From: an uncultured Leptolyngbyaceae cyanobacterium
GTDB taxonomy: Bacteria; Cyanobacteriota; Cyanobacteriia; Leptolyngbyales; Leptolyngbyaceae
Length of the DNA stretch: 40,939 bases
Direction: 5' to 3'
Assembly: GCA_938023035.1 (NCBI GenBank)
Contig: CALIDI010000008.1
Coordinates: forward strand, 1-40,939
Each line of letters begins with the position of its first letter. Position 1 is the stretch's first letter. Below are positions 34,489-40,629 of the stretch, in pieces. Below the pieces are notes generated by a model. The model was not told where the DNA came from. It searched no databases and worked only from the letters and a program-made list of their open reading frames with translations. A program made the position numbers and the translations under genes.

Positions 34489-35826
34489 TTACGCCAGGTT
34501 AAAGTGTTCCATGTGTATATTTGTAACGGGCACTTCCAACGCTAACAACGCCCGCTCTACTGCTGCCATCATGGCGGGAGCTGCACAGATAAAGTACTGA
34601 CGACTACCTCGGTGAATGGGAATGTGTCGTGCCAGCAGATCGCGGTCAATATAGCCCGTTTCACCCGACCAATCTTCTGCGGCTTTCCGCAAAACATAGA
34701 TGATTGTCAGATCGAGGGTTGCTTTCAGCGCTTCAAGTGCCTCTCGATAGGTCACATCTTCCCAGGAGGGAGCAGCATAAATCAGCAGAAATGGGCGATC
34801 GTCGTGGCGCTCCGCTGCTGTTAGCAACATGCTGTAAATGGGTGTAATCCCGACTCCGCCAGCAATTAAGACAAAGCCGGCACTATTCCAGTAGCGTTCA
34901 GTGGTAAACACACCGTAAGGCCCATCCAAATAGGCTTTGGTGCCCGGCTTCACGGTTTGGATCTGGCTGGTAAAGTCCCCTAGAGCCTTGATCCCAAATT
35001 CAAGCTGATCGGGGCGATCGCCACTAGATGACATGGAAAAAGGATGCTCTCGCATACTCAGCGGTGTAATGTCAAGGGTTAACCAGGCAAACTGGCCCGG
35101 CTGAAAGGTAAAGCCCTCATGGCCCAGGGGCCGCAGCACCAGACTCCAGACATTGCCTCGCTGAGGCATAACAGACTCAACAACGTAGGGGCGCTTTGTC
35201 ATCAGCCAGGGCTTTACCAGACGCACATATACAATCAGCCAGAGGGCTACCAAGATCAGGCCACCCCAGAGCACCTGTTTCCAAAACAAGCTGAGATAAT
35301 AACCCACCCCAACGGCGTGACCAAACCCCAAACCCACTGCCAGCAGCGCTAACAAGCTATGCATAGCCCGCCAGGGTTCGTAGGCAATCTTCAGCGGCTT
35401 GCGCCAGATCGTCGTGACCACCATGGCCAGAAATGCCACCGTACCCAGTACAGCCAGTCGCGCCCGCCAAGGAGCCTGGGGAAAATTGAGCAATTGCAGG
35501 GTTTCGGGCTTTGTGATGAATAGCATGACTGGATGCACCAGCACCAGTACCAGTGCTACGACCGAACTGTAGCGATGAAACTGCAAGAGAATATCAATGC
35601 CATAGGAGGACTCAATGCGATTGACACGAGCCGTTAAAACAAATTGCAGTACCATCAGCGCCAGACCAATAAACCCCAAAGCCACCGAAAACTCTACCCA
35701 GAATCCGCGTTCTACGGGCATGGGATGAAGCAACAGCAGCAACAGGGGAAACAGGGTAACGAACAGATAGGCGCTGATCCAGGTAAGCGCCACAGCAATG
35801 GGGCTGTGCATTAGCAGGCGTCTCAT
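34489..35826 (-). CDS. Ferric-reductase-like transmembrane flavocytochrome
   Basis: A 445-residue protein. The N-terminal half has six hydrophobic segments with the heme-ligand pairs H84/H98 and H156/H170, each 14 apart, as in FRE/NOX ferric reductases. The C-terminal half is a ferredoxin-NADP+ reductase-like unit with the FAD segment REHPFS (259-264) and the nucleotide-binding GGVGITP (323-329). It should pass electrons from cytoplasmic NAD(P)H across the membrane to an acceptor such as Fe3+, O2 or a quinone. ATG 35826 is chosen because it overlaps the upstream stop as ATGA; the longer frame to 35877 would overlap the lactonase gene by 55 bp. Confidence 0.88.
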   Translation of the reverse strand: MRRLLMHSPIAVALTWISAYLFVTLFPLLLLLLHPMPVERGFWVEFSVALGFIGLALMVLQFVLTARVNRIESSYGIDILLQFHRYSSVVALVLVLVHPVMLFITKPETLQLLNFPQAPWRARLAVLGTVAFLAMVVTTIWRKPLKIAYEPWRAMHSLLALLAVGLGFGHAVGVGYYLSLFWKQVLWGGLILVALWLIVYVRLVKPWLMTKRPYVVESVMPQRGNVWSLVLRPLGHEGFTFQPGQFAWLTLDITPLSMREHPFSMSSSGDRPDQLEFGIKALGDFTSQIQTVKPGTKAYLDGPYGVFTTERYWNSAGFVLIAGGVGITPIYSMLLTAAERHDDRPFLLIYAAPSWEDVTYREALEALKATLDLTIIYVLRKAAEDWSGETGYIDRDLLARHIPIHRGSRQYFICAAPAMMAAVERALLALEVPVTNIHMEHFNLA

Positions 35827-36719
35827 GGGGCTTCTCCAGTGGAAATTCCAAAGCGATGGGTTGGCAATCCAGGGCAATCGGTTGGTAGGCGAAACAAATC
35901 GCCAGCATAAAAGCCGGCCTGAATTTCAGTCTGACTCAACCCAATGGAGGCCGAGGTGATGTACAAATCGGTAAGGTGGCTACCTCCAAAAATCGGGCAG
36001 GTGGGGCGTTGCACGGGTAGCTGCACCCGTCGCAATTCCTGGCCGGTTGGGTCAAACTGCACAACACACCAGCCATCCCACAGGGCCGACCAGAGATGAC
36101 CTTGGGTATCAACGGCTAATCCATCGGGTTCTACGGGTTCATCGCCCAAATCGATTAATACCTGGCGATCGCCAATGCTTCCTGTGGCTCGATCAAAAGC
36201 GTAGGCAAAAATTTGTCTCCGGGGCGAATCGGTCAAGTAAAAGGTGTCTCCGGCTGGGCTCCAGCCCAACCCATTGGCAATGGTTAACCCCGTTTCCATG
36301 GTCTGCCAGGTACCGTCGGGATCATAGCGATAGAGAGCCGCTTGCCCCAGCTCTGGACTAAGGGAACCAACCCAAAACCGACCTTGCACATCGCACTTGC
36401 CGTCATTAAAGCGACTACCAGGGCAGGCAAACTTCACTTGGTGCAGCGTTTGTTGTGCGCCGGTTTGGGGATCTAGCAGCGCGAGCCGATTACCCAGCGC
36501 CATTAGAAGTTGCGGCCCATCGGTAAGAGCGATCGCGCTCACCACATCCCCGACATCAAAACTGCGATCTCGACCTGTAGCCGGATTAAACTGATGTACC
36601 CGATGGTTATAGATATCGACCCAGTAAAGCACCTGAGTGGCTGCATCCCAGAGGGGACACTCCCCCAGGCGGGCACGGGCAGCAAGAACATTTTGGATAG
36701 CGGTGACCGTTACACTCAT
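35823..36719 (-). CDS. SMP-30/gluconolactonase family protein
   Basis: A 298-residue six-bladed beta-propeller lactonase. ATG 36719 starts the recognisable fold (MSVTVTAIQNVLAARARLGECPLWD); the frame continues back to 37025 but that section overlaps the glucosidase gene and is a shadow. Metal-site segments are LGECPLWD with its Glu, RFNDGKCDVQGRFWVG with its Asn and FYLTDSPRRQIFAY with its Asp. It would hydrolyse an aldonolactone such as glucono-1,5-lactone, matching the SDR upstream. It starts 22 bp after the glucosidase remnant and shares ATGA with the flavocytochrome gene. Confidence 0.9.
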   Translation of the reverse strand: MSVTVTAIQNVLAARARLGECPLWDAATQVLYWVDIYNHRVHQFNPATGRDRSFDVGDVVSAIALTDGPQLLMALGNRLALLDPQTGAQQTLHQVKFACPGSRFNDGKCDVQGRFWVGSLSPELGQAALYRYDPDGTWQTMETGLTIANGLGWSPAGDTFYLTDSPRRQIFAYAFDRATGSIGDRQVLIDLGDEPVEPDGLAVDTQGHLWSALWDGWCVVQFDPTGQELRRVQLPVQRPTCPIFGGSHLTDLYITSASIGLSQTEIQAGFYAGDLFRLPTDCPGLPTHRFGISTGEAP

Positions 36720-36741
36720 GGGGCTTTGAGGATTGTGGATT

Positions 36742-37614
36742 TTAGCGTTGAGATTGCTGGTGCAGCAAAGTGGCGACCAAGCTAGTCCAGCCGGTTTGGT
36801 GATTAGCGCCAATACCCGCGCCGTTATCTCCATGGAAATATTCATAGAACAGAAGCAAGTCGCGCCAATGGGGATCGGTCTGGAAGAGAGAGTGACCCCC
36901 ATGCACAGGGCGATCGCCTGCTTGATTCCGTAAAAAGATGCCGCAAAGCCGCTGACCAATCGCCTCTGCCACCTGCTGCAAGGTCTGGTGTGGGCCTGAC
37001 CCAGTCGGATACTCCAGCAACACATGTAAGTGCTTGGCCGTATTGGCTCGGTTCACCACTCGAATCTGAATCAGAATATCCTCGTCTGTCTGCTTGGCAT
37101 ACTCGACAAAGACATCAAAGTATTCGTTGCGATCAAAAATGCCTGTATCTACTAATTCAAATTCTGGATCATAAAAACCCCGTTCTTGATTGGCCCTGAC
37201 CAACTGATCATAGGGAAAAGCCACCTGAGGATATTTATAGAGATACTTCATGTAGGCGTGGGAGGGGATATTGTCCAGGTAAAAGTAGTACTCCTTGACA
37301 TCTTCCCCGTGGTTGCCCTGCGGCCCTGTCAGCCCAAAAATACGCTCTTTAAGAATGGGGTCTTGCCCATTCCAGAGGGCGATCGCAAAGCACAGCCGTT
37401 GGTGATTATCAGAAATTCCGGCAATGCCATCCTCCCCCCAGCGGTAGGCCCGCGAGCGGGCATGGTCATGAGGAAAATAGTCCCAAGCTGCTCCGTCAGG
37501 GCTATAGTCTTCGCGCACGGTGCCCCACTGGCGTTCACTCAAGTAAGGCCCCCAGCGTCGCCAGTAGGCGGTGCGATCGCGATCGTCAGCCAGGCGTTTT
37601 TCTTCTGCTGTCAT
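36742..37614 (-). pseudogene. MGH1/GH63-like glucosidase with a large internal deletion
   Basis: A 290-codon intact frame. Residues 1-197 match the N-terminal part of large (about 880-residue) cyanobacterial MGH1-like glucosidases: [60 protein letters not shown]. Residues from about 201 jump to their extreme C-terminus: [25 protein letters not shown] and [18 protein letters not shown]. About 590 residues including the (alpha/alpha)6 barrel core are missing, with the join near 37010-37025. The frame is kept and a GAGG site precedes ATG 37614, so a short protein may still be made, but hydrolase activity is unlikely. An assembly error is an alternative. Confidence 0.8.
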
Positions 37615-37697
37615 TGGTTACCTCGTGGGTATCACTTTTGGTTGGTTTGATTCATGCTGTTGGCAGCTCATTCGCAGCAAGCGGTAAACCGCTTTTA

Positions 37698-38507
37698 CTA
37701 GGCCGACCAGGCTTCTCGAAAGTCAGCGTAGAGGGTTAAACCACCATCAATAAATAACGTTTGTCCAGTGATGTAAGCGGCCTCATCCGAAGCGAGAAAA
37801 GCAACAGCCGCCGCCATTTCTGCAGAAGTACCTACCCGCCCCATAGGAATATGGCTTTCGACGGCCGCCTGTTTTTCCAAGTCTTCGATCCAGGCTTTGT
37901 TGATTGGGGTCACCGTGGCTCCAGGGGCGATCGCATTCACCCGAATGCCCTGGGCTGCATATTCTAGCGCCAGGGTCTTGGTCATGTTTTCCATGCCACC
38001 CTTACTGATTGCATAGGTGACATAGAGGGGGCGGGGAATGATTTCATGGACGCTGGAGATGTTGATAATCACCCCGGTTTGCCCTTGGGTGAGCCAGTGG
38101 TTAATCGATTCCCGCGCGCAGAGAAAGGCCCCGCGCAGATTGACTCCCATAATCCGGTCAAAGTCTTCAGCCGTGACCTCATGGGAAGGCGTTTCAGTCT
38201 GAATTCCGGCATTGTTGACGAGAATGTCGAGATTGCCTAGTTTTTCAATGGTGGTAGCCACCATCTGGCAAATGTCCGCTTCTTTAGAAACATCCCCTCG
38301 CACTAGGAGCGATCTCACCCCACAGGCTTCGGCCTGCCCACAGGCTTGCTGCATCGCCTGGGCTTCGGTGACTTGTGCTCCCTCCGGGCTGCTGCGGTAG
38401 TTAATGGCAACGTTACACCCCTCCTCCGCCAGTCGAATCGCGATTGCCTGCCCAATGCCAGAGGCCGCCCCTGTTACCAAAGCAGTTTTGCCTTTCAATC
38501 CCTTCAT
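37698..38507 (-). CDS. SDR family oxidoreductase, glucose 1-dehydrogenase type
   Basis: A 269-residue classical short-chain dehydrogenase. The cofactor motif TGAASGIG is at residues 12-19, NNAG at about 98-101 and the catalytic S151/S152, Y165 and K169 (YAISK). The INYRS after beta-2 and the C-terminal IDGG fit the glucose 1-dehydrogenase subgroup, which makes gluconolactone and NAD(P)H. ATG 38507 is preferred over 38543 because GAGAGG lies four bases ahead and the family starts there. It is the first gene of the putative operon; the glucosidase remnant follows after 83 bp. The true sugar or polyol substrate is unproven. Confidence 0.9.
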   Translation of the reverse strand: MKGLKGKTALVTGAASGIGQAIAIRLAEEGCNVAINYRSSPEGAQVTEAQAMQQACGQAEACGVRSLLVRGDVSKEADICQMVATTIEKLGNLDILVNNAGIQTETPSHEVTAEDFDRIMGVNLRGAFLCARESINHWLTQGQTGVIINISSVHEIIPRPLYVTYAISKGGMENMTKTLALEYAAQGIRVNAIAPGATVTPINKAWIEDLEKQAAVESHIPMGRVGTSAEMAAAVAFLASDEAAYITGQTLFIDGGLTLYADFREAWSA

Positions 38508-39054
38508 AGAGCCTCTCAGTGAATGAACATTGCTTTGATCCAAGCTTACCGGTGTGAATCTATCCGTATTTTTGCGGAGTTACTGACGCTGGGCATCTAC
38601 CAGAGGAATCAACCCTCAACCCAAATCAAATGACAAAAATCTTTCCGTCGAAGGATGTTCGATTGTTTCAATCTATCCCCTCTGGGAAGAATAGAACCCT
38701 AGATAGAAAGTTTCCTCTAGTGTCCTGACTATATACAGCCGTAGCCATCCTCTTAATACCTGGAGCGATTGCAGCAACGCCTTAAGCCTCACCCCTTAGA
38801 AATAAGGATTTCATAACCTGACCACGAGGTGCAGAGAACACAGAGCCATCTCTCGGTGCCATCCGGGTCTCTGAGGTCAAGCCTAACGATTTTCAGTCCT
38901 TGCACTTATGATGCTAAAAACAGAACCCAAAGCGACTCTGCGGTGATCGATTCTGAGCGCTCTTGCATCCGTTTTACGACTTGATTAATCTGTTTGATTA
39001 ATCTGTATTCCTTAGAGTTGGACATTTCTTCCAGGTAGGGATCGCACTACATCC
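38508..39054. other. Divergent upstream region of the SDR operon and the osmoprotectant genes
   Basis: No gene is called. Promoters of both divergent operons should lie here. The tandem palindrome repeat at 38981-39006, listed separately, is the only strong structure. Confidence 0.5.
38981..39006 (+). promoter_or_regulatory. Tandem 13-bp repeat with palindromic cores
   Basis: TTGATTAATCTGT occurs exactly twice in a row (38981-38993 and 38994-39006). Each copy holds the perfect 8-bp palindrome GATTAATC. It lies 49 bp before the permease ATG, a plausible place for an operator. No regulator is identified; a two-copy duplication without function is the alternative. Confidence 0.4.
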
Positions 39055-39693
39055 ATGCAGAACTTCTTTTTGATTCGCTATGGGGGCGAAATTTTGCGCC
39101 GCACGGGGGAGCACTTAGTACTGGTGGCCTGTGCCATCGCGATCGCCACTCTGATTGGCATTCCTCTGGGCATTGTTATCACCCGTCACCGCCGCCTGCG
39201 TCAACCGATTCTGGCGCTGGCCAATATTTTTCAAACAATTCCCAGTTTGGCCCTGTTTGGGCTGCTGCTACCGATCCCCCTGATTGCTGGCATTGGTGCG
39301 ATTCCGGCGATTGTCACCCTGACGCTCTACTCCTTTCTGCCGATTATTCGTAATACTTACGTAGGCATCACCAACATTGACCCGGCAGTGCGAGAAGCCG
39401 GTCAGGGGATGGGCATGACCGACTGGCAATTGCTGTCTCAGGTGGAGTTACCCCTGGCCTCGGGGGTGATTTTAGCGGGTTTACGGGTGGCAACGGTGAT
39501 TGCGATTGGTGTTGCGACCATTGCAGCGGCGATTGGAGCTGGTGGTTTGGGGCAACTGATTTTTCGAGGAATCTCTGTAGTGAACGACCAACTGATTTTG
39601 GCAGGAGCGGTGCCCGCCGCAGCGATCGCCCTAGTGGCAGATTATGGCCTAGGCCGGCTGGAAAAGCGACTCAATCGTAGAGGTCAACCGTGA
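39055..39693 (+). CDS. Osmoprotectant (glycine betaine/choline) ABC transporter permease, OpuBB/ProW-like
   Basis: A 212-residue permease, the usual short OpuBB length, with five or six hydrophobic segments. The family pattern is evident in LVLVACAIAIATLIGIPLGIVITRH, the coupling loop VREAGQGMGMTDWQLLSQVELPLASGVILAGLRVATVIAIGVATIAAAIGAGGLG and the C-terminal YGLGRLEKRL. It overlaps the binding-protein gene by GTGA at 39690-39693. The ATPase gene is not in the window. It is intact, ATG 39055. Confidence 0.92.
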   Translation: MQNFFLIRYGGEILRRTGEHLVLVACAIAIATLIGIPLGIVITRHRRLRQPILALANIFQTIPSLALFGLLLPIPLIAGIGAIPAIVTLTLYSFLPIIRNTYVGITNIDPAVREAGQGMGMTDWQLLSQVELPLASGVILAGLRVATVIAIGVATIAAAIGAGGLGQLIFRGISVVNDQLILAGAVPAAAIALVADYGLGRLEKRLNRRGQP

Positions 39694-40595
39694 ACCCCAA
39701 AATGACCATCCGCCAATTGCTCATCTTGTTTCTGCTAGCAGTGGTTTGCCTGGGGGCCGTTGCCTGTCGGGGCAATACGCCAACAGGGCAGCAGGCCGAC
39801 CTAGTGATTGCCTCAAAGGGCTTCACCGAGCAGGACATTTTGCAAGAATTGCTAGCTCAGCAAATTGAACGTCGTACACAGTTGAAGGTTGATCGGCGAC
39901 GACTAGTCGGTTTTGTGGCCCATAAAGCCCTGATCAACGGGCAAATTGACGGCTATGTCGAGTATACGGGAACCGCTTATGTTGGCTATTTGCAACAACC
40001 CGTATTAACCGATGCCGCCGAAACTCGTCAACGCCTAACAGATCTCTATGCCACCCAATTTAATTTGCAGGTGCTGCCTTCCCTTGGCTTTGAAAATACC
40101 TTTGCCATGGTGATTCGGGGAGAAGATGCCCAACGCTATCAGGTTGCCACCCTTTCTGAGGCTGCCCAGTATGCACCGCAATGGCGAGCAGGTTTTGGCT
40201 ACGAGCTTCTGGAGCGGGAAGATGGCTTTCCTGGGTTGGCGCAAACCTATCACCTGCAATTTGCCCACAGCCCCGAAGTGATGGATCTTGGGTTAATCTA
40301 CCGCGCCTTAACTCAAAAAAAGGTGGATTTCATTGCGGGCAACTCAACCGATGGGCAGATTGCGCGCTTAGGACTGGTGGTTTTGCAGGATGACAAACAC
40401 TACTTTCCCCCCTATTAGGCGGTGCCCATTTTCCGTTGGGAAACCTTGCAAACGTATCCGCAATTGCAAGGGGCGATCGCCGAATTGGCAGGCAAAATTT
40501 CTTCTGAAGCGATGCAAAATCTGAATTACCAGGTGGAAGGGGAGTTGCGTGACGTGAGAGAAGTTGTCCAAGAGTTTTTACAAACTCAGACTTAA
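39690..40595 (+). pseudogene. Osmoprotectant-binding lipoprotein interrupted by TAG
   Basis: GTG 39690 overlaps the permease stop. The product starts with a lipoprotein-type signal (LLILFLLAVVCLGAVAC, Cys at about residue 26) and continues as an OpuBC-like glycine betaine/choline-binding domain (VIASKGFTEQDILQELLAQQIE, VEYTGTAYVGYL). At 40416-40418 a TAG ends the frame after 242 codons, right after KHYFPPY. The same frame then runs 58 more codons (AVPIFRWETLQ, ELAGKISSEAMQNLNYQVEGE) to TAA at 40593-40595, which is the normal C-terminal lobe. GAG to TAG is the simplest change. The truncated form lacks the last helices and is probably inactive; recent mutation, sequencing error or readthrough are possible. 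Confidence 0.88.
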
Positions 40596-40629
40596 GCATC
40601 TCTTTCTGGTAAAACCAGACGGTTCTCCG

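Follow-up and report, generated by a model that had tools for sequence, protein, structure and literature searches.

Background

Full-length GH63-like glucosidases are found in cyanobacteria and other bacteria as proteins of mostly about 880-930 aa that carry PF22422 and PF03200. In MhGgH, a related GH63 enzyme, Asp182 acts as the acid and Glu419 as the base (PMC6608630). Among solved structures, the nearest folds to a full-length cyanobacterial homologue (L050) in a Foldseek comparison of its AlphaFold model were those of the GH63 processing alpha-glucosidase I (4j5t; Chaetomium 8e3j), which ranked first with a TM of about 0.5, and also included that of E. coli YgjK (3w7x). Even the full-length homologue shares 10-14% identity with these enzymes in the structural alignments. 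Pseudogenes that arise by internal in-frame deletion are also known, in which the ends of a gene are intact, the middle is gone and the frame is kept.

In the present study, a stretch of 40,939 nucleotides (the window) from an uncultured Leptolyngbyaceae cyanobacterium (contig CALIDI010000008.1 of assembly GCA_938023035.1) was analyzed, in which a short ORF joins the two ends of such a glucosidase. Its first 199 and last 91 residues are homologous to the full-length enzymes and keep all of the tested conserved sites, but some 585 residues are lacking, most of the barrel among them, and unlike alpha-glucosidase I and YgjK the product is without most of their fold. The remnant resembles an internal-deletion pseudogene in its intact ends, absent middle and preserved frame, but it has no frameshift or stop yet, and such a status is therefore either recent or unproven.

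Results

The ORF at 36742-37614 (minus strand) encodes 290 aa from an ATG to the stop codon at 36742-36744 with zero internal stops, and a GAGG motif was read by eye close 5' of the ATG; a sigma-70 match was looked for and none was found. Alignment to homologues matched it to the two ends of a GH63-like glucosidase of ~885 residues, in agreement with the original prediction that two glucosidase ends had been fused with the frame intact. The two-end layout was right, and the sizes proposed for the retained ends (~197 and ~85 residues) are corrected herein to 199 and 91. The N-terminal 199 codons (37018-37614) cover the first part of a strand-rich N-terminal domain, the limits of which were taken from the L050 model, and show identity of up to about 82-84% with homologues, and the C-terminal 91 codons (36745-37017), with the last barrel helices and a conserved FYEYF... 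motif, show identity of up to about 74%. In whole-genome matches, residues 1-199 and about 200-287 were the two ends of mostly single ORFs of ~900 residues. In a Pfam scan of the remnant, PF03200 reached 11.3 bits at the C-terminus, below the cut-off of 22.4, and PF22422 was absent; in the full-length homologue L034, PF22422 (MGH1-like_GH) and PF03200 were both above cut-off. An NCBIfam scan of the remnant gave no match.

Both parts were present in 81 homologue ORFs among the loci retrieved (a count made after the locus of the window itself and a duplicate had been removed), where they are spaced by 511-690 residues, and they were adjacent in the window alone. In other words, full-length homologues exist for a copy that is without an essential domain, which is the pattern expected of a pseudogene. 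The join (37015-37020, minus strand) was placed between 37017 and 37018, inside the predicted range of 37010-37025, and falls at codons 199/200, the last N-side codon being 37018-37020 and the first C-side codon 37015-37017. Relative to L050, L051, L052, L053 and L034, 582-590 residues are missing, and the predicted loss of ~1.8 kb is corrected to about 1.75-1.77 kb. On the N side of the join, ten relatives have a Leu codon followed by CCN, and on the C side nine of the ten read GTN GAR TGY CCN, the tenth starting with CTT. The window reads TTG followed by CTG GAG TAT CCG, and codon 200 appears, from these letters, to be mixed from bases of both sides. Microhomology at the join, which had been suggested as a possible trace of the event, gave no clear case against these ten relatives.

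Models of the fusion and of full-length L050 were obtained with the same 40 homologues. The L050 model (pLDDT 77.8, pTM 0.84) has a strand-rich N-terminal domain to about residue 315, which can be read as the GH63 beta-sandwich, and consists mostly of helices from about residue 328. The fusion was modelled with a pLDDT of 49.6 and a pTM of 0.39; the block-mean pLDDT was 77.9 in L050 and 47.8 in the fusion over residues 1-200, and about 76 and 54, respectively, over the C part. Judged from the L050 model, the cut sits in the strand 194-204, inside the N-terminal domain, and the C piece starts after most of the helices. These models suggest no compact new protein, with the reservation that a poorly scored model does not prove misfolding. 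The region missing from the remnant corresponds to about L050 residues 200-784 and contains most of the helical catalytic barrel, which had been described as gone; its last helices are kept in the C-terminal 91 codons. The conserved C-terminal Glu (E258) is also kept, and this Glu/GWT motif can be aligned to that of GH63 glucosidase I. Lost with the middle are the WDxxFH and GLDNIG segments, which by homology presumably hold the substrate-binding Asp and the acid.

The original prediction had left room for a known family of ~290-residue proteins with the same arrangement and for the short form in related genomes; no such family was found in Pfam, NCBIfam or the genome searches, and no genome searched held the short form besides that of the window. 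The survey of the order covered 42 genomes, its own included, with a match at E <= 0.001 in 32 and none in the other ten. Of the 53 N-side rows in the table from this survey, 46 have frames of at least 880 residues, and among the seven shorter frames N and C parts occurred together in that of the window only. A frame of 641 residues was recorded in the survey in genome G010. Neither the remaining 41 genomes of the order nor the other 57 genomes of a further, overlapping set showed the short form. In a class sample of 388 genomes, 18 matched, and a match past residue 199 was seen in the window's own only; by our estimate, fused forms down to about 60% identity would be expected to show at this threshold, more divergent ones could escape, and in some genomes 6 of 7-11 candidates were scored. 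The search of the GTDB collection covered the best 80 of 581 confirmed stretches. Matches were obtained in 53 plasmid records, 50 of them covering less than 80% of the query and three at least 80%, and there was no short form among the matches listed. The three longer ones (Azospirillum H9 and H10 and Rhizobium H12, 81-85% query coverage) were considered as short forms and rejected, since their CDSs of 2757-2763 bases are full length; in these records the match passes residue 199 by extension. Some tblastn matches also run past residue 199, e.g. to 268 in L093, which is full length. A 277-aa frame in G343 was likewise discarded as a second short form because the contig end cuts the frame. Literature on the family name, cyanobacterial GH63 and in-frame deletion pseudogenes of glycoside hydrolases yielded nothing on this gene.

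Separate trees of the N part and the C part were built from 46 homologues and the window, the C tree resting on 91 columns. Each tree groups the window with L034 and L050-L054, with modest support, and the window lies outside the starred sets of both trees. The end branch of the window is long in the C part (0.46) compared with the N part (0.078), which could reflect relaxed constraint there, whether before or after the deletion. Upstream of the remnant lies a gene at 37698-38543 (minus strand) that we take, from its sequence type, to encode an SDR. Genes 71-77% identical to it stand upstream of the homologue, directly or within about 2.1 kb, in seven of the 27 loci searched (L034, L041, L052, L053, L054, L056 and L059), and six further loci have a weaker match of 44-50%; the gene is absent from the 5-kb flanks of L050 and L051, the two closest N-part relatives of the window. 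The gene downstream (35823-36719, minus strand), presumably of the SMP-30/gluconolactonase family, has its start codon 22 bases past the stop of the remnant, and a similar gene was near homologues in four of 90 loci (L094, L095, L100 and L107), none of which is a clade-mate of the window. The operon neighbours had been thought unchanged; this is borne out upstream, in the seven loci, but the downstream gene is not shared with the clade. A deletion that keeps the frame would presumably leave translation into the SMP-30-like gene undisturbed. Because both ends belong to one clade and the SDR gene lies beside seven relatives, one gene seems to have lost its inside; an origin of both ends from one parent gene is supported but not proved.

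Positions invariant in all other rows numbered 56 in the N part and 13 in the C part, and the window differs at none of them, nor at any of the 99 codons that are at least 97% identical (80 N, 19 C). Residues unseen in other rows numbered 0 in the N part and 1 in the C part of the window, against medians of 2 and 2. Assuming free drift since the deletion and a transition weight of 2, the 99 codons and the lack of a stop set an upper bound on neutral change of about 0.012 substitutions per site at 95%, and the odds are even at 0.003. For a gene that is now drifting, the deletion would thus be recent, less than about 0.012 substitutions per site ago; on sequence grounds the remnant may be either recent or constrained, the conserved-site test fitting both alike. 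In the N part, dS is saturated against six of seven relatives, making dN/dS on the window branch uninformative, and the C-part dS comparisons leave out L034 and L052, which gaps put out of register. The clean frame and lack of stops had been taken to argue for a recent or selected event. A short period of neutral drift is consistent with these data, but a random deletion preserves the frame one time in three, and therefore the clean frame needs no selection.

The only other GH63-like copy found in the same genome is the paralogue on contig C12 (L032, about 28.9-31.7 kb), which has a premature TGA within the same conserved C-terminal motif (HQTG) and a readable frame beyond. Thus, both copies of the enzyme in this genome look damaged. 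Broken members of the family were also observed elsewhere. The copy in G009 (L041, 541-1674) is split around an ORF that we take to be transposase-like and resumes beyond it to the contig end; the homologue in G207 (L145, 2815-5585, on a 4.87-Mb contig) lies in two frames separated by about 155 bases; at two loci in G007 the parts do not share a frame, and at one of these they lie more than 1 kb apart; and the stretches retrieved from G062 and G058 showed N-terminal parts only. In Chamaesiphon polymorphus (L054, 5001-7454), which is placed with the window in both trees, 78 barrel residues have been lost in frame and independently; this loss may be a matter of assembly, as the contig name gives a low coverage of 5.5x. 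Together with the ten of 42 genomes of the order without a match, these broken members make it evident that many lineages can do without the enzyme. Isolated C-terminal fragments of about 39-60 residues in short frames, which are probably further remnants, were noted in G013:C23, G001:C96, G005:C99 and G053:C34.

Discussion

Herein, we consider the short ORF to be a pseudogene freshly formed by one in-frame deletion of ~1.76 kb in one GH63-like glucosidase gene, and the probability of this reading is put at roughly three in four. Of the two options that had been offered, a gene that has died or a small protein that has taken on a new function, the former is favored by the single parent, the intact ends, the cut through a domain, the lack of a confident fold, the absence of the short form from the other genomes searched and the other broken copies, and the latter has no positive support. 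We propose that the parent was a GH63-like glucosidase gene adjoining the SDR gene, from which a single deletion would have taken out the rest of the strand-rich N-terminal domain together with most of the catalytic barrel, the ends being joined without visible homology and in frame by chance. Judging from the models, the product would neither fold nor catalyze, and the enzyme would by then have become dispensable in this genome. In other words, the short form is most likely a recent and ordinary gene loss with no working enzyme. Several observations count against this reading: the 99 unchanged codons and the lack of a stop indicate that decay has either not visibly begun or been prevented, the start motif is kept, the C-part end branch is long, and the closest N-part relatives have no SDR gene in the 5-kb flank.

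The main rival is an assembly error or a minority strain variant, in which the real gene is full length and assembly, binning or polishing dropped its middle. An assembly of 62 contigs with 95.9% completeness leaves some room for such an error, and conserved sites as intact as these are what a live gene would show. However, 121 bases around the join match in full only themselves in the assembly, all other matches being of 25 bases or fewer (E > 0.1) with none across the join, and no direct or inverted repeat within 36600-37750 covers it, so that a misassembly through a repeat is not supported. Moreover, in a search of the assembly with a full-length protein, the C12 paralogue was the only place that matched the missing middle, with no stray copy. 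We therefore regard an artifact as unlikely, though worth keeping in mind.

Selection for a small protein, with the fused ends forming a new stable product such as a binding protein or a regulator, would account for the open and preserved frame, the intact start region and the absence of any change in the conserved codons. A recent event explains this conservation equally well, however, the form was found in no other genome searched, and a cut through a domain with no confidently modelled fold is not what such a product would predict; this explanation is accordingly given a low probability. A more specific version, in which a partial N-terminal domain is completed by the C-terminal barrel helices to give a non-catalytic, selected protein of 290 residues, appears slightly more doubtful still; if it were true, the protein might, for example, bind glycans or act as a partner to the adjacent SDR or to the C12 paralogue. 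Recombination between two paralogues, one giving the N-terminus and the other the C-terminus, was also considered, as the C part is about 69-74% identical to C12-type paralogues and related copies and about 55-69% to most clade members. Nevertheless, the breakpoints are not at homologous positions, and the C tree, like the N tree, places the window with the same relatives, for which reason a chimera was set aside as the main reading, on trees with few columns and low support; of all the explanations, this one is the hardest to credit.

If the deletion reading is correct, the locus is a clean case in which a large enzyme gene can die without a frameshift or a stop, in what is otherwise ordinary gene loss, and automatic annotation may call the remnant an intact 290-aa protein. 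It would also describe one genome with lesions in both copies of the enzyme and in a nearby gene for an osmoprotectant-type binding protein.

The latter gene, at 39690-40597 (plus strand), encodes a substrate-binding protein that we take to be of the osmoprotectant type, and it has a premature in-frame TAG at 40416-40418, past which the frame stays readable to 40597. It adds a second lesion of fresh appearance less than 3 kb from the glucosidase remnant. The frame of the binding protein is 245 aa in the window and at least 299 aa in 12 of the 14 other matched genomes, where one of the 12 reads through a TGA; in one of the remaining two genomes the frame is split, and the other gave a match to part of the protein. 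Beyond it, the contig end (40777-40939) falls inside the apparent start of psbD (photosystem II D2), as read by eye; psbD is often present in several copies, and a multi-copy gene would explain a contig break at this point.
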